Shown piece after piece: positions 53,670-63,627 of a stretch of 64,000 nucleotides of DNA (within the stretch, counting starts at the first letter, position 1; every line of letters begins with the position of its first letter). The notes beneath the pieces are model-generated. The model saw nothing but the letters and a program-made list of their open reading frames with translations. It was not told where the DNA came from and did no database searches. A program made the translations under genes and the position numbers. The stretch comes from Hyalangium ruber (GTDB lineage Bacteria > Myxococcota > Myxococcia > Myxococcales > Myxococcaceae), in contig NZ_JAXIVS010000003.1 in assembly GCF_034259325.1 (NCBI RefSeq), positions 124,001 to 188,000 of the forward strand, in the 5' to 3' direction.

Positions 53670-55151
53670 CTACTCGTCCTCTTGCTGGCCGAACATGAGC
53701 CGCAGGAAGGGCAGGTCCTCCGAATGCGAGAAGACATACACATGGTCCCCCGCCTGGAGGAGGGTGTCGCCCTTGGGAGCCACCAGCTCCAGGCCTCGGA
53801 CGATGAGCATGGCGGCCGACCCGGGGGGAAAGGGCAGCTCCGAGATGCGGGCGCCCACCGAGGCCGAGGCCGTGTTGATGTAGAAGGCGCTCAGCTCGCC
53901 GTTGAGCAACTGGGTGGAGGCGATCTCCAGCACCGCCGGCGGCGCGGCGGGCACGTTGGCCGCCAGCCCCAGCTTGCGCGTCACCCAGGGCACCGTGGCT
54001 CCGGGGATGAGGCCGTTCACCACCACGATGAAGAAGACGATGTTGAAGAGGTTCTTGGCCCCGGGCGCCCCCGCCAGCACCGGGAAGGTGGCGAGGATGA
54101 TGGGCACCGCGCCGCGCAGCCCCACCCAGCCGGTATAGACGATCTCCCCCGCCGGGAAGCGGAACGGCAGCAGGCACAACATGACGGCCAGGGGCCGGGC
54201 GATGAAGGCCAGGAAGAGGCTCAGGACCAGCCCCACCCCCGCGACCCCGAGCAGCTCCCCGGGGAAGACCAGCAGCCCCAGCACCAGGAACATGGCCACC
54301 TGGGACAGCCACGCCAGCGCGTCATGCACCCGCAGCAGGCCGGTGCGGTAGCGCAGCGTCTCGTTGCCCAGCAGCACCCCCACCGCGTAGACGGACAGGA
54401 AGCCGCTGCCATGGAAGAGCGTCGGTAGCCCGAAGGCGATGAAGGCCAGCGCCAGCGTCAGCACCGGGTAGAGGCCCGCCGCCTGGAGCCGCAGGCGCTT
54501 GACGAGCAGGCGGCCCGCCCAGCCGATGGCCAGCCCCATGCCTCCGCCCACCACCATCTGGACCACGGCCTCCAGCGCCAGCTCCCAGCCTGGGTTCTCG
54601 CCCTTCGCGAGGCTGTGGGTAAGGGCCACGGTGAGGATGACGGCCATCGGGTCGTTGAGGCCGGACTCCAGCTCCAGCGTGGTGCCCACCCGACGCTTGA
54701 GGTGCAGCCCGCTGCCGCGCAGCACCGAGAAGACGGCCGCCGCGTCCGTGGAGGAGACGATGGCTCCCAGCAGCAGGGACTCCGTCCAGGGAAAGCGGAA
54801 CAGCAGGTGCGCGGCCACACCCACCAACACCGCCGTGGCCACCACCCCCAGCGTGGCGAGCACGGCCGCCGGGCGGATGGCGGAGCGCACCGCGGACAAG
54901 GGCGTGTTGAGGCCGCCGTCGAAGAGGATGAGCACGAGCGCCACCGTGCCCAGGCGGAAGGAAAAGCCGTAATCCTCGAAGGCAATGCCCCCCGGCCCAT
55001 CCGAGCCGGCCACCATGCCGATGACCAGGAAGAGCAGCGCCACCGGAATCCCGAAGCGTCCCGAGGCGCGACTGAACAGCACGCTGAGCGCCAACAACAC
55101 GCCGGAGAGCAGCAGCAGGAAGGCGGTAGGCAGCGGCTCCGTCGAAGGCAT
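53670..55151 (-). CDS. CPA1-family K+/H+ antiporter, NhaP2/CvrA-type
   Basis: 493 residues from the ATG at 55151; an in-frame GTG at 55163 is possible. Twelve to thirteen helices with the CPA1 signatures 'FDGGLNTPLSAVRSAIRPA' (about 78-96), 'LGAIVSSTDAAAVFSVLRG' (about 129-147), 'LESGLNDPMAVILTVALT' with the ND motif (about 158-175) and 'GWVGLRGAVPIILATFPV' (about 340-357). The C-terminus has an RCK_C-like segment ('GARISELPFPPGSAAMLIVRG' through 'LQAGDHVYVFSH'), as in NhaP2-type K+/H+ antiporters. It likely expels K+ or other monovalent cations in alkaline or high-K+ conditions. Divergent from the Kef-type gene at 55223. Confidence 0.9.
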   Translation of the reverse strand: MPSTEPLPTAFLLLLSGVLLALSVLFSRASGRFGIPVALLFLVIGMVAGSDGPGGIAFEDYGFSFRLGTVALVLILFDGGLNTPLSAVRSAIRPAAVLATLGVVATAVLVGVAAHLLFRFPWTESLLLGAIVSSTDAAAVFSVLRGSGLHLKRRVGTTLELESGLNDPMAVILTVALTHSLAKGENPGWELALEAVVQMVVGGGMGLAIGWAGRLLVKRLRLQAAGLYPVLTLALAFIAFGLPTLFHGSGFLSVYAVGVLLGNETLRYRTGLLRVHDALAWLSQVAMFLVLGLLVFPGELLGVAGVGLVLSLFLAFIARPLAVMLCLLPFRFPAGEIVYTGWVGLRGAVPIILATFPVLAGAPGAKNLFNIVFFIVVVNGLIPGATVPWVTRKLGLAANVPAAPPAVLEIASTQLLNGELSAFYINTASASVGARISELPFPPGSAAMLIVRGLELVAPKGDTLLQAGDHVYVFSHSEDLPFLRLMFGQQEDE

Positions 55152-55222
55152 GGGCGCGGCCACTCTACCCGAGCGATGGGGGGAGATTGTTCCCCGACGC
55201 GGGGCTGTGCAATGAGGAGGAC

Positions 55223-56998
55223 ATGTCCCTCCTCCACCAGGCCCTCGTCTTCCTGGCGGCCACCGTCGTGGCTGTTCCCCTCTTCAAACGGCTCGGGCTG
55301 GGCTCCGTCCTGGGCTACCTGGCCGCGGGCATGGTCATCGGTCCCTGGGGGGTCGGCGCCGTCTCGGACGTCGAGAGCATCCTCCACTTCGCCGAGTTCG
55401 GCGTGGTGCTCCTGCTGTTCCTCATCGGCCTGGAATTGCAGCCCTCGCGCCTGTGGGAGCTGCGCAAGACGGTGTTCGGCCTGGGCGGCCTCCAGGTGGT
55501 GGGCTCCGGCGCGCTCCTGGCGGGGGTGGGCATATTGTTGGGGCTCAAGCCAACCACCGCCCTCATCGCCGGCATGGGCCTGTCCCTGTCCTCCACCGCC
55601 TTTGCCTTGCAATTGCTCGCCGAGAAGAACGAGCTGACGTCCGACCACGGGCGCGTCGCCTTCGGCGTCCTCCTGTTCCAGGACCTGGCCGTCATTCCCC
55701 TGCTGGCGCTGCTGCCGCTGCTGGGCACCTCCGACATGCCCTCCACCGAGCCCGGGTGGCTCTCGACGCTCAAGGCGGTGGGCGTGCTGATCGGAGTCGT
55801 CCTCGCCGGCCGCTATGTCATGCGCCCGGTGTTCAAGGCGGTGGCCTCCTTCCACAGCCAGGAGCTGTTCACCGCCACCGCCCTGCTGCTCGTCGTCGGC
55901 ACCGCGGCGCTGGTGAGCGCGGTGGGCCTCTCCATGGCCCTGGGCGCCTTCCTGGCCGGCGTGCTCCTGGCCGAGTCCGAGTTCCGCCACGAGCTGGAGG
56001 CCGACATCGAGCCCTTCAAGGGCCTGCTGCTGGGCCTGTTCTTCATCGCCGTGGGCATGTCGGTGAACATCGGCCTGGTGCGGACCAGCCCCCTGCTGGT
56101 GCTGGCCCTGGTGCTCGCGCTGGTGGCCATCAAGGCCGCGGTGCTGTTCGCCATCGGCAAGTGGAGCCTGCGCGGCACCGAGTCCGCCCTCAGCCTGGGC
56201 ATCGTCATCTCCCAGGGCGGCGAGTTCGCCTTCGTGCTGTTCGGGCTCGCGGTGCAGTTCCACGTGATGGACAAGCCGCTGTCGGAGCTGCTCGTGGTGG
56301 TGGTGAGCCTCTCCATGGTCACCACGCCGCTGCTGTTCACCGCCTACACGCGGTGGGGCCGCCCCCGCTTCAACAAGAAGGCGAAGCGCGAGTTCGACGT
56401 GGCTCCCTCGGAGGACAACCCCGTCATCATCGCCGGCATGGGGCGCGTGGGGCAGGTCATCGCCCGCCTGCTGCGCGCCAAGCGCATCGGCTTTACCGCC
56501 CTGGACTCCAGCCCGGAGAACATCGACTTCCTCAAGCGCTTCGGCAACATGATCTACTACGGCGACGCCTCGCGGCTGGACCTGCTGCGGGCCGCGCGCG
56601 CGGAGAAGGCGCAATTCTTCGTGCTCGCCATCGATGACGTGGCGGCCTCCGTCCGCACGGCGGAGACGGTGCTCCAGCACTTCCCCCACCTCACCATCTT
56701 CGCCCGGGCCCGCAACCGCCAGCACGCCTACCAACTGCTGAACCTGGGCATCAAACACGTGACGCGCGAGACGTGGAGCTCCAGCCTGGAGATGGCCGGC
56801 GAGCTGCTCGAGGAGATGGGGCTGACGTACTCCGAGAGCCACAAGACGATCGAGCGCTTCCGGGAGCACGACGAGAAGCTGCTGCAGTCCGTCTACCCCT
56901 TCCACAAGGACGAGAAGAAGCTGACCGAGATGGCGGCCAAGGCCCGCCAGGAGCTGGAGAGCCTCTTCGAGAAGGACGCCGAGCAGAAGGCCTCGTAA
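55223..56998 (+). CDS. kefC: Kef-type K+ efflux antiporter with RCK_N domain
   Basis: 591 residues from the ATG at 55223, with GAGGAGG immediately upstream. CPA2 antiporter core (about 1-380): 'LGYLAAGMVIGPWGVG', 'LLFLIGLELQPSRLWEL', 'GMGLSLSSTAFALQLL', 'LLFQDLAVIPLLALLPL', 'SQGGEFAFVLFGLA'. Then a Rossmann RCK_N/TrkA-N domain starting 'VIIAGMGRVGQVIARLL' (about 403-419) with 'YGDASRLDLLRAA'. This is the KefB/KefC layout: K+ efflux gated by nucleotide or glutathione binding. No KefF/KefG ancillary subunit is adjacent. A charged helical tail ends the protein. It is 10 bp upstream of the histidine kinase, likely cotranscribed. The symbol is by architecture only. Confidence 0.9.
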   Translation: MSLLHQALVFLAATVVAVPLFKRLGLGSVLGYLAAGMVIGPWGVGAVSDVESILHFAEFGVVLLLFLIGLELQPSRLWELRKTVFGLGGLQVVGSGALLAGVGILLGLKPTTALIAGMGLSLSSTAFALQLLAEKNELTSDHGRVAFGVLLFQDLAVIPLLALLPLLGTSDMPSTEPGWLSTLKAVGVLIGVVLAGRYVMRPVFKAVASFHSQELFTATALLLVVGTAALVSAVGLSMALGAFLAGVLLAESEFRHELEADIEPFKGLLLGLFFIAVGMSVNIGLVRTSPLLVLALVLALVAIKAAVLFAIGKWSLRGTESALSLGIVISQGGEFAFVLFGLAVQFHVMDKPLSELLVVVVSLSMVTTPLLFTAYTRWGRPRFNKKAKREFDVAPSEDNPVIIAGMGRVGQVIARLLRAKRIGFTALDSSPENIDFLKRFGNMIYYGDASRLDLLRAARAEKAQFFVLAIDDVAASVRTAETVLQHFPHLTIFARARNRQHAYQLLNLGIKHVTRETWSSSLEMAGELLEEMGLTYSESHKTIERFREHDEKLLQSVYPFHKDEKKLTEMAAKARQELESLFEKDAEQKAS

Positions 56999-57008
56999 GG
57001 ACTCCGCC

Positions 57009-58442
57009 ATGAGGCTCAACTCGCTCTCGGCGCGGTTGCTGCTCGCGTTCCTGCTGCCCACGCTCGGCTTCTTCGGGCTCATCGGCACGGTGGGCTACGC
57101 CCTGGCGCGCTCCATCCTCGAGGACGAGCTGGGGCAGAGCCTGTCGGCCATCGCCGCCGCCACCGCCAGCCAGGTGAGCGGCGAGCGCATGCTCACCATC
57201 GAGCCGGGGGACGACGTGCAGGGCACGCGCACCTGGCGCAACCTCACCCGGCTCCTGGAGGAGGTGCGGCAGGCCAGCGGCATGCGCCGCGTGTACGTGG
57301 TGGATGTGCAGGGACGGGTGCGAGCGGACGTGGGCGGCTCGCTGCCCGTGGGCGCCGAGGTGCCGGAGCTGGCCCGGGACCGGCGCGAGCTCTCCTTGGT
57401 CTTCGCCGGGGAGCGCGCCGCCAGCCAGGTGCTCTTCACCGGCTCGGACGGGCGGCTCTACAAGACGGGCTATGCGCCGGTGCGCCAGGAGGGCGCGGTG
57501 GTGGGCGCGGTGGCCGTGGAGGGCAGCGCCGTCTTCTTCGGCCCGCTGGCCCGGCTCTCGCGCACCTTCACCGTGGCCAGCGTCCTGGCCCTGGCGGTAC
57601 TCGCGGCGGTGGCGGTGCTCACCGCGCGAGGGCTCGCCCGACCGCTGCGGCGGTTGATGGACTCGGCGCTGCGCATCGGCCGGGGAGACCTGACGACGCC
57701 CGTGCCGCCCGAGCCCACCCAGGAGATTGGCGTGCTCGCCCGCGAATTGGAGGAGATGCGCGGGGCGCTGGAGAGCCGGGACCGGCAGCTCAAGCTGATG
57801 CTCGCGGGCGTGGCCCACGAGGTGCGCAACCCCCTGGGCGGGATTGAATTGTTCTCCGGCCTGCTCGCCGAGGACTTGAAGGAGGGCAGCACCACCGAGG
57901 CCGCCAGCCACGTGGGGCGCATCCAGCGCGAGGTGGGCTACCTGCAGCGCATCGTCGAGGACTTCCTGGCCTTCGCGCGGGAGCAGCCGCTGCACCGCGC
58001 CCCTGTGGAGGCCCCTGCCCTGCTCTCCAGCGCGTGCGAATTGCTCGCCGTGGAAGCAGAAGCCAAGGGCATCCAAGTCCAGGTGGAGGCGGCGCCCGCC
58101 CTGCTGGAGGCGGACGGGAGCCTGCTGACCGCGGCGCTGGTGAACCTGGTGAAGAACGCCGTGCAGGCCTCGCCCTCGGGGCAGCCGGTGCGCGTCGTGG
58201 GCCGGGTGGAGGCCGGGCGCTACGCCATCCAGGTGAAGGACTCCGGACCCGGAGTGCCCGAGCCGGAGCGCGAGCGCATCTTCGAGCCCTTCTTCACCAC
58301 CCGGGAGAAGGGCACCGGCCTGGGGCTGCCGCTGGCGCGAAAGATCGTCCGGGCCCACGGCGGGGAGCTGGCCTTCACCTCCACGCCCGGGGACACCACC
58401 TTCACCCTGACGCTGCCGCTCCAACAGGGGAGCCCCTCGTAG
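57009..58442 (+). CDS. Membrane-bound HAMP sensor histidine kinase
   Basis: 477 residues. TM1 (about 8-33), an extracytoplasmic sensor of about 150 residues ('GMRRVYVVDVQGRVRADVGG' resembles a Cache/PAS-like strand pattern), TM2 (about 183-206), HAMP (about 207-258), dimerisation/phosphoacceptor domain with His270 in 'AGVAHEVRNPLGGIE', and an HATPase_c domain with N-box 'LVNLVKNAVQA', G1 'VKDSGPGVP', F-box 'FEPFFTTREKGTGLGL'. A complete kinase without receiver domain. It follows the Kef-type gene by 10 bp, and the NtrC-type regulator at 62215 is the nearest possible partner. Confidence 0.92.
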   Translation: MRLNSLSARLLLAFLLPTLGFFGLIGTVGYALARSILEDELGQSLSAIAAATASQVSGERMLTIEPGDDVQGTRTWRNLTRLLEEVRQASGMRRVYVVDVQGRVRADVGGSLPVGAEVPELARDRRELSLVFAGERAASQVLFTGSDGRLYKTGYAPVRQEGAVVGAVAVEGSAVFFGPLARLSRTFTVASVLALAVLAAVAVLTARGLARPLRRLMDSALRIGRGDLTTPVPPEPTQEIGVLARELEEMRGALESRDRQLKLMLAGVAHEVRNPLGGIELFSGLLAEDLKEGSTTEAASHVGRIQREVGYLQRIVEDFLAFAREQPLHRAPVEAPALLSSACELLAVEAEAKGIQVQVEAAPALLEADGSLLTAALVNLVKNAVQASPSGQPVRVVGRVEAGRYAIQVKDSGPGVPEPERERIFEPFFTTREKGTGLGLPLARKIVRAHGGELAFTSTPGDTTFTLTLPLQQGSPS

Positions 58443-58461: not shown

Positions 58462-60258
58462 TCAGTTCACGGTGAACTGGCTGGCCATCTGGCCCACTTC
58501 CGTGGACACCGCCTGCAGCGTCTCGGTCGCCTGCTGCGTCGACTCGAGCCGGCGCAGCGTCGCGTCCATGATCTGCGACAGGTCCGCGATGGCGCTGAAG
58601 ATCTGCGAGATACCGGCGTTCTGCTGGTTCACCGCCGCGACGATCTGCCGCATCGCCGCCGAGTTCTCCTGCGACAGCCGCGACAGCTCACGCAGGCTGT
58701 CGGACGAGGCGCGCATGCGCTCCAGACCGCCGGCGATGTCGCGCGAGCCCTGCTCCACCATGGTGGCCGCCGCCCGGATGGCGCCGATGACTTCGCCGAG
58801 GATGCCGCGGATGCGCGTGGTGCTCTTCACCGACTGGTCGGCCAGGGCGCGAATCTCGCGCGCCAGCACCGCGAAGCCCTTGCCGTTCTCGCCCGCGCGC
58901 GCCGCCTCGATGGCGGCGTTGACGGCCAGCAGGTTCGACTGGTCCGCCATGTCCTTCACGGCCTCGGTGATTTCGCCGATCTGCGTGGCGCTCTCGGCCA
59001 GGCGGTTGAGCTTCACCTGCATGGCGTCCACGAACTGCTGAATCGTGGAGAGGCCCTGCATGCTCTGCTCGATGGCGGCCTCGCCCTCGTGGCCCAGGTC
59101 CTCGGCGCGACGCGCCACCCGGAGCATCGCCTCGGCGCGCTCGGCCGTCATCTGCGAGGTCTGCTTGATCTCCTGCGACGTCACCTGCGTCTGCTGGATG
59201 GCAGCCGCCTGCTGGTTGAGGCTCTGCTGCTGCTCGTTGTTCGCCTCGCCCAGGTCATTGCCCGCCGTCACCAGCCGGCTGGCCGACGAGGCCAGCGTCT
59301 CGGGGATCTGCCGCAGCTTGGAGAGCACCGCGTTCAGCGCGGACGCCAGGTCCCCAATCTCGTCCGTGGACACCCACTCCGGCGAGGAGATGCGCCCGGA
59401 GGCCAGGCCGGTAATCGCGCTGCCCACCGCCGTGGCGCCCAGCGCCTGGCGGCGCGCCAGCAGGTACGTGGTGATGGTCGGCAGGACGATGACGAGCACC
59501 GCCACCCAGGGCAGCGCGTAGGCCAGGTCCACGAACAGCGAGGCGCTCAGCTTGGCCACCTCTTCGGCGGACTTCGGGTCGCCTGCCTTGATCATCCCCT
59601 GGACCTGGTCGAGGCCGCCGCGCACGCCAATCAACTTCACCACCACCACGCAGCTGCTGAGCACCAGCGTGGCGATGATGGAGGCGACGAACGTGTAGGG
59701 CAGGAACCAGGACTGGCGCGGCCAGAAGATGCCGCTGCCCTTGAGCTCGATGGTGGGGTGCGCCTTGCGCTCCTCCATCGCGTGCGGCAGGCAGAGCTTC
59801 TCCAGGCTGATGCCGAAGGGGAAGGACACCACCACGCCGAAGCAGAAGGCCACCGCCGTGCCCAGGAAGATGCGGATCGGCTCCTTGCCGTACGCCAGGC
59901 ACACCGGCAGGGCGAAGCTGAAGCCGCCCAGCGTCCACGCCACATAGGTGGTGAAGAGGCTGGCGCGCCACGGCAGCCGGAGGATTCGGGCCAGGCGCTC
60001 TCCCGGCGCGTCTCCGGGCCGGTGGCGCAGCGCGCGCGAGCTCAGCGTCCGGATGGCCACGTACGGATACACGAAGCCGTACACGCCGATGATGATCGGC
60101 ATGATGACCACCACCATCTGCGTGGCGTCGTCGCTCGCCAGGCCCACCACCATCGCGATGAGGTAGGCGCAGATGAGCGCGGGGGCGAACACCCACTTCA
60201 GGAACAGCGTGCTCCCGCGGCGGGCAAAATCTTTGATGAGCTGATCGTCGTTGGTCAT
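58462..60258 (-). CDS. Methyl-accepting chemotaxis protein with a multi-helix membrane sensor
   Basis: 598 residues. Unlike classical receptors with two membrane helices, the N-terminal ~265 residues hold about six ('[21 protein letters not shown]', '[20 protein letters not shown]', '[20 protein letters not shown]', '[19 protein letters not shown]', '[23 protein letters not shown]', '[19 protein letters not shown]'). A HAMP-like stretch (about 270-325) leads to the MCP signalling domain (about 330-590) with the hairpin tip '[45 protein letters not shown]' (centre). A membrane-embedded or energy-sensing input is likely. No che genes are nearby. Convergent with the histidine kinase. Confidence 0.93.
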
Positions 60259-60391
60259 GGCGGCTGCCCCCCCCGTTCCGGGCTCACGCTGAAGGACGTG
60301 AGGCAGCGGGTGGTGTGCTCACCACACGCTTGGACGTGAGAAGGGTTGGATCCACGGGCCGCATTCAACCCGAGAATCCTGCCGCTGTGAA

Positions 60392-61222
60392 CTACCCCGC
60401 TTCGGGAATCTCGGCGGCGTAGCAGGCCTCCCACACCTTGGCCAGCAGCTCGAGGGACTTGCGAGCAGCCTCGGTCACCCGGGCCGGCTCCTCGCTCAGC
60501 GGGTTGGTGGCCGCCTTGATGATCTCCAGCGCCTCGTGCGGGTGCGCATCGTCATAGCGGGCGTGCGCCTTGAGCCACATCATCGACACGCCGTCGATGC
60601 GGGCGCCCTCGGCCGCGTACTCGCGGAAGTGCTTCTCGACGCCGTGCGTCCATACGCCCGTCACGCCCTCGACGGCCCAGTTGGAAGCCGCCACGCCCTC
60701 GGCCAGGGTGCCCTTGGCGCACAGCTCCATGAGGTAGGTGTGCAGCTCCATCACCTCCGGCATCGGCGTGTGGTTGAAGAGCTGCTCCGGATCAATCCCC
60801 GTACCGGCCGCCCAGTCCAGCCACCACTCGGAGTGCTTGGCCTCCACCGCCATGTTCTGCAGCAGCCAGCGGCGGGCGCTGGAGTCACCCGGGCGCTTGC
60901 CGTAGGTGGTCTTCGCCAGGGACAGCCCCATGTACTTGGGGAAGTTCTCCACGATGAAGAAGCACTCGGTCAGCATCCGCTGCCACACGCGCAGGGGGGG
61001 GCGCTTGCCCTCGGCCGTCTCCTTGAACAGGCGCGGCCAGCACGCCGCCTCCCACTCGGTCTTCACCGTCTCCACCATCGCCGTAATCCACTCCGGGTGC
61101 GGGGTGGTGGCCAGCGCCGGCGGGTTGTAACGCCGCGCGGGGGCCTCGGTGGCAGAGCGCTTCGCCAGGGGCAGGGGCTGGGTCTTCTGGGGGGCCGCAG
61201 TGTCCAGGGCGACGGTCGACAT
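60392..61222 (-). CDS. Haem-oxygenase-fold metal-dependent oxidase/oxygenase (CADD/TenA-like)
   Basis: 276 residues. After an Ala/Pro-rich N-terminal 40 residues the protein is all helical. Candidate metal ligands appear in family order: Glu92 ('FIVENFP') or Glu127, His130 ('VEAKHSEWW'), Glu185 ('NWAVEGVTG') and the hallmark H-x3-D-x2-H His220-Asp224-His227 ('HARYDDAHPH'). This is the dinuclear (Fe/Fe or Mn/Fe) site of haem-oxygenase-like diiron oxidases such as chlamydial CADD and UndA. TenA and PqqC share the fold but lack this set. The chemistry and substrate are unknown. AGGAG lies upstream of the ATG at 61222, and it is a single-gene unit with its own promoter. Confidence 0.8.
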   Translation of the reverse strand: MSTVALDTAAPQKTQPLPLAKRSATEAPARRYNPPALATTPHPEWITAMVETVKTEWEAACWPRLFKETAEGKRPPLRVWQRMLTECFFIVENFPKYMGLSLAKTTYGKRPGDSSARRWLLQNMAVEAKHSEWWLDWAAGTGIDPEQLFNHTPMPEVMELHTYLMELCAKGTLAEGVAASNWAVEGVTGVWTHGVEKHFREYAAEGARIDGVSMMWLKAHARYDDAHPHEALEIIKAATNPLSEEPARVTEAARKSLELLAKVWEACYAAEIPEAG

Positions 61223-61530
61223 AGTGAACTCCTGAGTTTCTATGTGAGACGGAATCTTACCCGCTTAGGGGGGAGGAAAGCAAGCTGACGGGAATTTTTC
61301 TGGGACTCTGGAAAAAAAGAGTCGAATTACGTTCTATTTTTCTAGCCGAACCGGAAAAAGTTGCGTGCCAGCTTGCTCCAAACGGAGCCGAACCGGCCTA
61401 CCTGTAGGTTGTGCAGCGCCCGGCTTCCGTCCAAGCCCTCTTCTCACAGGCACGTTGGCAACTGAACAGCCTAAGGCTCCGGTTCATGAGAGCTGTGTTC
61501 ACTGCTAGAGAAGGTGGGTTAATACGCACC
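61223..61530 (-). other. Gene-free, AT-rich promoter region of the haem-oxygenase-fold gene
   Basis: No coding frame supported. It contains AT-rich runs (GGGAATTTTTCT, GGAAAAAAAGAGTC, CTATTTTTCTAG) rare in this genome and an inverted repeat GACTCT ... AGAGTC at about 61305-61325. A candidate promoter is listed separately. The regulator is unknown. Confidence 0.5.
61254..61283 (-). promoter_or_regulatory. Candidate sigma-70 promoter of the haem-oxygenase-fold gene
   Basis: On the minus strand TTGCTT (61283-61278), 18 bp and TAAGAT (61259-61254) resemble -35 and -10 elements 32 bp before the ATG, with AGGAG between them and the start codon. Confidence 0.4.
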
Positions 61531-62130
61531 TCAACGGCTCGTCGGGTGGAAAGCAGAACGCGCTTTTTCTAGCAACCTGCGCAGGGGCGGTTCATCGGCA
61601 CGTTCCAGCGCCGCGCCCCACTCCAGCCACTGCGCCCCAAAGGACTCGGCCGGGTCATGCGCCAGGGCCTCCGGGTCCTCGGCGACGACGAGGTAGCGCA
61701 CATCCAGGTGGAGGTGCTCGGGCTCGTCCTTGCGCGCCGGAATGGTGTGAATGTCGACATCCAGCGGGCGAGGTGCGGAAGGGTGGAGCTTCACCCGACA
61801 CCCCGTCTCCTCCTGGGCCTCGCGCAGGGCGGTGGCCTCCATGCTGCCGGCGTCCGCCTCGTCCGCGTGGCCTCCGGGCTGGAGCCACCGCTTGAGCTTT
61901 CCATGGTGGAGCAGCACCACGCGGTTGCCCGTGGGGTCCACCACCACGGCGCTGCCGGTGAAGTGGGCCTCGGGCTGGGCGCGGGAGAAGGGGCGCGAGA
62001 GCCGGGCGGCGAAGGCGCGCATGCGCTCCAGGTCCTCGCGCTCCTTGGCATCCGTGGGCACGTGGCGGGCCAGCAGCCCGGCCAGGGAGGAGTCCGACTC
62101 CGTCATGGGCATGGAAAGGGTAAATCGCAT
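61531..62130 (-). CDS. Nudix hydrolase
   Basis: 199 residues from the ATG at 62130; in-frame ATGs at 62112 and 62106 are alternatives and none has a clear ribosome-binding site. Nudix fold about 55-190 with the Nudix box '[25 protein letters not shown]' centre at about 86-110: REAQEETG carries the metal-binding Glu residues, while the first Glu of the consensus is Gly, a variant common in the 'QPGGH' subgroup. Cleaves a nucleoside-diphosphate-linked substrate (X); identity unknown. The N-terminal ~50 residues are helical and Arg/Leu-rich. It is divergent from the sigma-54 activator. Confidence 0.88.

Positions 62131-62214: not shown

Positions 62215-63627
<1,413 letters not shown>

Follow-up and report, generated by a model that had tools for sequence, protein, structure and literature searches.

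A predicted UndA-branch dimetal oxidase encoded beside a chemoreceptor gene in Hyalangium ruber and other Myxococcaceae

Introduction

Haem-oxygenase-like dimetal oxidases and oxygenases (HDOs) activate O2 at a bound diiron or Fe/Mn cluster and are defined by three histidine and three carboxylate ligands carried on core helices, the 3H/3C definition given in the available part of a review of the superfamily (PMC13108848). Among its members, UndA of Pseudomonas (PDB 4wwj, 4wx0, and 6p5q) is a medium-chain fatty-acid oxidative decarboxylase that converts C10-C14 fatty acids to 1-alkenes (PMC12344977, excerpted text), and mutation of its W190 abolishes the radical seen in the enzyme (PMC13108848, in part). 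1-Undecene from Pseudomonas has been reported as an airborne communication molecule (PMC10614000, in part). It is in Pseudomonas that the alkene chemistry of UndA-type enzymes was established, and the myxobacterial pair of genes described here hints at a private greasy signal that could be both made and sensed. Among the matches listed in the open-access literature on UndA and 1-undecene, no title concerned a myxobacterial UndA.

On the receptor side, 13 of the 21 chemoreceptors of Myxococcus xanthus are orphans with respect to che operons, and the sections of PMC3945109 available to us assign no ligand to them. According to these sections, at least 13 receptor mutants are impaired in fruiting; five mutants are named as free of defects, McpD not being among the five, and the text gives no phenotype for McpD. 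McpD (MXAN_1248) is listed there (Table 1 of that paper) with 599 aa, five transmembrane segments, and no annotated HAMP domain, and the same sections mention no adjacent oxygenase. The locus tags MXAN_1246-1249 gave no match in the open-access literature, in which, going by titles or the start of abstracts of the matches listed, no pairs of a chemoreceptor with a terpene, P450, or other gene cluster are described; six relevant terms are absent from PMC12766979, and the available part of PMC6997564 likewise describes no receptor-enzyme pair. A receptor gene tied to a UndA-like enzyme would provide a concrete ligand candidate for an orphan chemoreceptor in social, predatory bacteria, and if the wider pattern considered below were to hold, the ligand class of a whole set of receptors could be read from gene order alone.

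The HDO Gene and Its Kinship With UndA

The DNA analyzed, here called the window, is a stretch of 64,000 nucleotides from Hyalangium ruber (assembly GCF_034259325.1, contig NZ_JAXIVS010000003.1, positions 124,001 to 188,000), and its relevant features are collected in Table 1. A preliminary description had taken the product of the HDO gene for an uncharacterised haem-oxygenase-fold dinuclear metal enzyme. The class has held up well, with the protein scoring 65.3 bits against PF14518 Haem_oxygenas_2 (E 8.3e-18, cut-off 28.9) and 31.5 bits against TENA_THI-4 (PF03070), which passes the cut-off of 22 but is the weaker match, and the proposed ligand numbering (E127, H130, E185, H220, D224, and H227) agrees with the translated reading frame. 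These six residues, together with W216, are invariant in all 43 sequences of an alignment that spans Myxococcaceae, Sorangium, Actinomycetota, and Pseudomonas, so the ligand pattern is not due to chance. With three histidines and three carboxylates on a predicted all-helical, haem-oxygenase-like fold, the protein is very likely a 3H/3C dimetal HDO.

Table 1. Positions in the window of the HDO gene, its predicted metal ligands, and the surrounding features.
Feature	Position	Strand	Basis
Sensor histidine kinase, conserved other border	57009..58442	+	domain match, locus comparison
Partner chemoreceptor gene, 5-6 TM N-terminal sensor	58462..60258	-	MCPsignal and weak HAMP; hydropathy
HDO-to-receptor gap, 133 bp	60259..60391	-	terminator scan
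HDO gene, predicted UndA-branch haem-oxygenase-like dimetal oxidase/oxygenase	60392..61222	-	276 aa ORF; Pfam, PDB search, model
His227, predicted metal ligand	60542..60544	-	alignment, 43/43
Asp224, predicted metal ligand	60551..60553	-	alignment, 43/43
His220, predicted metal ligand	60563..60565	-	alignment, 43/43
Trp216, aligns with UndA Trp190 (radical site in UndA)	60575..60577	-	alignment, 43/43; PMC13108848 (in part)
Glu185, predicted metal ligand	60668..60670	-	alignment, 43/43
His130, predicted metal ligand	60833..60835	-	alignment, 43/43
Glu127, predicted metal ligand	60842..60844	-	alignment, 43/43
AT-rich region upstream of the HDO gene	61223..61530	-	base composition, site scans
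NUDIX gene, conserved border of the variable slot	61531..62130	-	domain match, locus comparison
Sigma-54-dependent response regulator, conserved border	62215..63627	+	domain match, locus comparison

The term uncharacterised was too pessimistic, as UndA, whose chemistry is known, is clearly related over the full length. The best PDB sequence matches are the UndA homologue PSPTO1738 (3oql, E 2.4e-36) and UndA itself (4wwj, 1.1e-33; 6p5q, 1.6e-33), in alignments spanning residues 35-269, with CADD far weaker (7e-4) and BesC marginal (0.58). Structure prediction and fold overlay, which had been suggested as a check, again put UndA first. An initial model built on 11 sequences was of mediocre quality (pLDDT 73.3), but with 43 sequences a confident one was obtained (pLDDT 90.5, pTM 0.85), and Foldseek placed UndA and 3oql at the top (E about 1e-12), followed by CADD (1e-7) and then TenA. 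A second structure aligner returned Z scores of 29.2 for UndA, 25.4 for CADD, 23.2 for a TenA homologue, and 22.0 for PqqC. UndA is thus the nearest solved relative, at about 32% identity over its full length, and the two share the fold, the six ligands in the spacing E-x2-H ... E ... H-x3-D-x2-H, and the equivalent of Trp190. BesC, HrmI, FlcD, and other HDOs belong to the same fold class of dimetal proteins but have 10-17% identity over the fold.

The kinship has its limits, however. In a tree of 47 rows, the Myxococcaceae HDOs form one clade (98/100), the window's protein with them, and the Pseudomonas proteins form another (100/100) on a long branch; Sorangium, the actinomycetes, and two distant homologues from family f2 of the same order fall outside both; the tree does not fix the order of its deep forks, and its bootstrap had not settled. 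Twenty-eight positions are fixed differently in the Myxococcaceae and Pseudomonas clades. Near the ligand E185, the residues G176, W182, and V190 are particular to Myxococcaceae, the other groups having A, Y, and mostly E in their place. With a separate clade, these clade-fixed differences, and a chemoreceptor gene as partner, all unlike UndA, the protein is a new subfamily inside a known kind, namely a distinct HDO of the UndA branch.

Within the order, homologues at E up to 1e-20 were found in 38 of 145 genomes, comprising 36 Myxococcaceae (the window's genome included, the others at 57-66% identity) and two members of family f2 (32-34%). Among the best 80 of 464 relatives from a named collection were Myxococcus, Corallococcus, and Citreicoccus (57-65%), Sorangium (43-46%), Actinoallomurus and its relatives (41-45%), Streptomyces sp. 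AV19 (38%), and Pseudomonas (30-34%, together with a small number of records under the name Pantoea). A Myxococcaceae-type HDO (62%) is also found on a contig labelled Comamonas sp. KCTC 72670, a label that looks wrong.

The gene had also been credited with an unusual AT-rich promoter. The AT-richness stands, with a GC content of 0.47 in the last 150 bp upstream vs. 0.69 in the gene; it is not unusual, as the corresponding regions of orthologues range from 0.49 to 0.71 (n = 15) and this value lies at the low end of the ordinary range. No sigma-70-like promoter was found in the HDO region of the window and no sigma-54-like site upstream of the gene, and control of the AT-rich region by either factor was rejected. 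The upstream regions of 16 sequences align poorly. A loose TGAAACA-like element lies upstream of the HDO gene at nine other loci (L042, L043, L044, L046, L047, L050, L053, L054, and L055) and was not seen in the window.

A Chemoreceptor Gene as Constant Neighbour

The HDO gene does not stand alone, as had been thought, since a chemoreceptor gene on the same strand begins 133 bp downstream, with no terminator-like site found in the gap. All 36 Myxococcaceae genomes that bear the HDO (36 of 36) have a receptor gene in this place, directly downstream and in the same orientation, at 87-259 bp between matched ends. Among the first 20 long loci, the receptor is present in 20, a response regulator on one side in 20, and a histidine kinase on the other in 17. 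The receptor carries an MCP signalling domain and a sub-threshold HAMP match, and a simple hydropathy scan found five to six hydrophobic segments within the first 275 residues of it and its paralogues. Its length and lack of a HAMP annotation suggest that it corresponds to McpD of M. xanthus, as does the receptor of a related genome, whose relative position on the chromosome matches that of McpD. Next to the locus, at 53670-56998, lie two adjacent genes of the Na+/H+ exchanger family, one with a TrkA_N and the other with a TrkA_C domain.

Between its conserved borders, the place of the HDO gene is a variable slot that was found in four states. The HDO and receptor occur together in 36 genomes judged by adjacency (with borders checked in 20), and the receptor occurs alone, about 200 bp from the NUDIX gene, in 3/3 genomes (G081, G082, and G083). 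In six of six genomes of genus g19, which otherwise bears the HDO (G094, G097, G104, G108, G109, and G114), a P450 gene takes the HDO's place and strand beside the receptor, together with a divergent cassette encoding ACP-like, enoyl-CoA-hydratase-like, and FabG-like proteins and a fatty-acyl-AMP ligase. Both HDO and receptor are absent from the slot in seven of seven HDO-less genomes of genus g6 examined there (G058, G063, G064, G066, G069, G071, and G072), a count that leaves out G068. By its motifs the slot P450 reads as an ordinary monooxygenase, and its score against the CYP152 peroxygenase model is far below cut-off.

The receptors of g19 differ according to the enzyme beside them. HDO-type receptors compared among themselves are 74% identical in the sensor half and 79% in the signalling half (45 pairs), whereas between HDO-type and P450-type receptors the sensor half drops to 48% with the signalling half still at 79% (60 pairs); the neighbouring response regulator is at 91% in both comparisons (one of the 28 loci has no regulator). 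Trees of the two halves agree with this. In the signalling-half tree the P450-type receptors group with the HDO-type g19 receptor L043 (92/94), whereas in the sensor-half tree all ten HDO-type g19 receptors form one clade (99/99) with the P450-type receptors outside. In this one genus, then, enzyme and sensor change together. It is this exchange for a P450 and a fatty-acid-type cassette with a changed sensor, in addition to the strict receptor pairing, that lifts the HDO above the routine.

A functional link between the HDO and the adjacent receptor may be entertained, with rather less than an even chance in its favor. The main competing explanation, that the linkage is merely positional, has about an even chance: the HDO would carry out its own lipid chemistry, the receptor would sense something unrelated, and the slot would simply be prone to recombination. 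Microsynteny is to be expected in close relatives, and the receptor is kept without the enzyme in the three genomes mentioned above. Furthermore, the sensor half varies even among HDO-paired receptors. The sensors of the window and g6, though paired with an HDO, are placed in the sensor tree with the P450/none type (92/90) and not with most HDO-paired sensors, and the nearest to the window's sensor are receptors without an enzyme (63%). Against a merely positional linkage stand the joint absence of both genes from the locus in all seven g6 genomes examined, the switch of enzyme and sensor together in g19, and the tendency of receptor paralogues to adjoin lipid, terpene, or polyketide enzymes when other receptors adjoin chemotaxis genes. 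The positional explanation opposes the pairing and not the assignment of the enzyme. Four HDO residues (C87, W134, L260, and V263) are common to the window and g6, in parallel with their shared sensor side, but were not used as evidence because the search was post hoc and the same count gave six residues shared only with g8 (none were shared only with g5 or g19).

Receptor Paralogues and Their Neighbours

The neighbourhoods of the receptor subfamily were compared with those of other receptors. The first panel of enzymes was biased, having been picked from the subfamily's own neighbours (4/22 control loci of G047 and 4/26 of the window's genome, G000, had a panel enzyme within about 5 kb), and the comparison was then based on Pfam matches in the immediately neighbouring genes. 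At 24 subfamily loci, the 50 neighbouring proteins included five P450s, four short-chain dehydrogenases, three terpene synthases, two UbiA proteins, two phosphopantetheinyl transferases, two HDOs, and one AMP-ligase. By comparison, the 98 proteins beside all other receptors of G047 and G000 (48 loci) were mostly of chemotaxis (CheW 17, response regulator 12, histidine-kinase ATPase 10, Hpt 9, and CheR 4), with one AMP-ligase and at most one P450, the latter bound being taken from list order, with 25 of the 114 control families listed. For the same reason the Fisher tests assumed one or two control matches, and since orthologous loci are counted more than once their p-values are not independent evidence and were not leaned on. 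Grouping by eye divides the subfamily loci into about fourteen contexts, and in at least nine of them an enzyme of this sort adjoins the receptor; contexts without one include L193/L199/L203, L181-L183, and L186. Given the rough GC3 gene calling, recurring orthologous loci, and hand-chosen genomes, the wider pattern is a lead and not a survey.

Individual loci illustrate the range of neighbours. Receptor paralogues at L187, L188, L198, and L207 lie beside a run of ACP, KS-III-like, and fatty-acyl-AMP-ligase genes, with an SDR gene on the other side of the receptor in the first three. At L194 and L200, and at L196 and L204, paralogues immediately adjoin genes for terpene synthases, and for P450 and UbiA prenyltransferases. 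At L210, L211, and L212, a paralogue that resembles McpL of M. xanthus by length and position adjoins a phytoene-desaturase-like FAD enzyme or lies close to it; the McpL-like paralogue was not found in the window's genome, where the desaturase-like gene lies near a different receptor.

The broadest reading of these neighbourhoods is that Myxococcaceae have a family of multi-transmembrane chemoreceptors hard-wired to lipophile-making enzymes. Each receptor would have its own ligand-making gene beside it (an UndA-like HDO, a P450 with a fatty-acyl-AMP ligase, a terpene synthase, KS/ACP/FAAL genes, or a PKS), a swap of enzyme would be accompanied by a swap of the sensor half, and the window's HDO and McpD-like receptor would be a private pair of fatty-acid-derived signal and receptor. 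We regard this generalization as rather unlikely.

Proposed Chemistry and Alternatives

By analogy with UndA, the window's protein would be a diiron (or dimetal) enzyme that oxidatively cleaves a C-C bond of a fatty acid or similar lipid, a proposal that we consider evenly balanced. As described for UndA in the available part of PMC13108848, the HDO would bind two Fe(II), the carboxylate head group of the substrate would sit on Fe1, and the substrate would trigger O2 binding to give a peroxo-diferric intermediate; loss of CO2 to leave a terminal alkene would be the simplest outcome. As many positions differ from UndA, the chain (e.g., an iso-branched myxobacterial acid) or the exact outcome is probably not that of UndA. 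More speculatively, the adjacent receptor might monitor the hydrophobic product or its precursor, a step that is possible though short of probable.

A lipid setting is suggested by the actinomycete relatives L072 and L083, which adjoin wax-ester synthase/DGAT genes, one of them also near a PlsC-type acyltransferase, and in the Streptomyces relative a P450 frame comes next. Counting against it, another actinomycete relative (L077) is followed by a gene for a YkuD transpeptidase, which is unrelated. Neither a reductase partner nor an acyl-ACP thioesterase was seen beside the window's HDO gene, and the low identity, the separate clade, and the 28 fixed differences all speak against the proposed UndA-like chemistry.

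The foremost alternative keeps the assignment to a diiron HDO of this branch but supposes an amino acid or some other polar compound as substrate, as for BesC, AetD, PolF, and HrmI; kinship to UndA would then predict the chemistry and not the substrate. Amino-acid substrates are common among characterised HDOs (PMC13108848, in part) and the positions unlike UndA would fit such a shift, but UndA is far closer than BesC or HrmI in both sequence and fold, and lipid genes lie near two actinomycete relatives and in the alternative P450 cassette, which makes a polar substrate rather improbable. A role in peroxide protection is very unlikely; the protein can be likened by description to DtpC of Acinetobacter baumannii, which has an HDO domain, ligand residues that are essential, and a peroxide phenotype (PMC13232832, in part), but no catalase or oxidative-stress gene was identified beside the HDO gene. 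A metal-free protein of the TenA/PqqC type shares the fold and PF03070 passes its cut-off, yet the PF14518 score is twice as high, the six-ligand set is invariant, and the fold scores favor UndA, so this reading was rejected as highly improbable and the metal-dependent class retained.

The suggestion that the gene belongs to a p-aminobenzoate route, as a self-sacrificing synthase like CADD of Chlamydia, shares with the UndA-branch reading the superfamily, ligand types, and fold (CADD being the second-best fold match), but has a negligible chance and was rejected, because the protein reaches 40 bits with the NCBIfam CADD model TIGR04305, whose cut-off is 200, and pab-like genes are present in the genome. 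In addition, the first Glu and His of CADD are separated by extra residues that the window's HDO lacks, and a TIGR04305 scan of the whole genome found five places below the cut-off and none above. The preliminary description had asked whether pabC is missing, and a pabC-like gene is in fact present. Of the two class-IV aminotransferases in the genome, one is clearly a branched-chain transaminase (404 bits vs. 279), and the other has the aminodeoxychorismate lyase model as its best match, below the cut-off of that model. The gene for the latter comes immediately after one that is pabB-like (318 bits vs. a cut-off of 328), both proteins thus falling below their equivalog cut-offs, and between the two is a glutamine-amidotransferase-like frame that reads as pabA-like. 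With this run of pabB-, pabA-, and pabC-like genes at about 250.8-253.6 kb of contig C7, the usual p-aminobenzoate route is very probably present.

The window's genome holds seven PF14518 matches over cut-off (L001-L007, on contigs C1, C2, C3, and C10). Two of these appear by eye to be fusions, one joining a ketoacyl-synthase-III-like protein to an HDO-like domain (L006) and the other with a cupin-like stretch after an HDO-like domain (L007).
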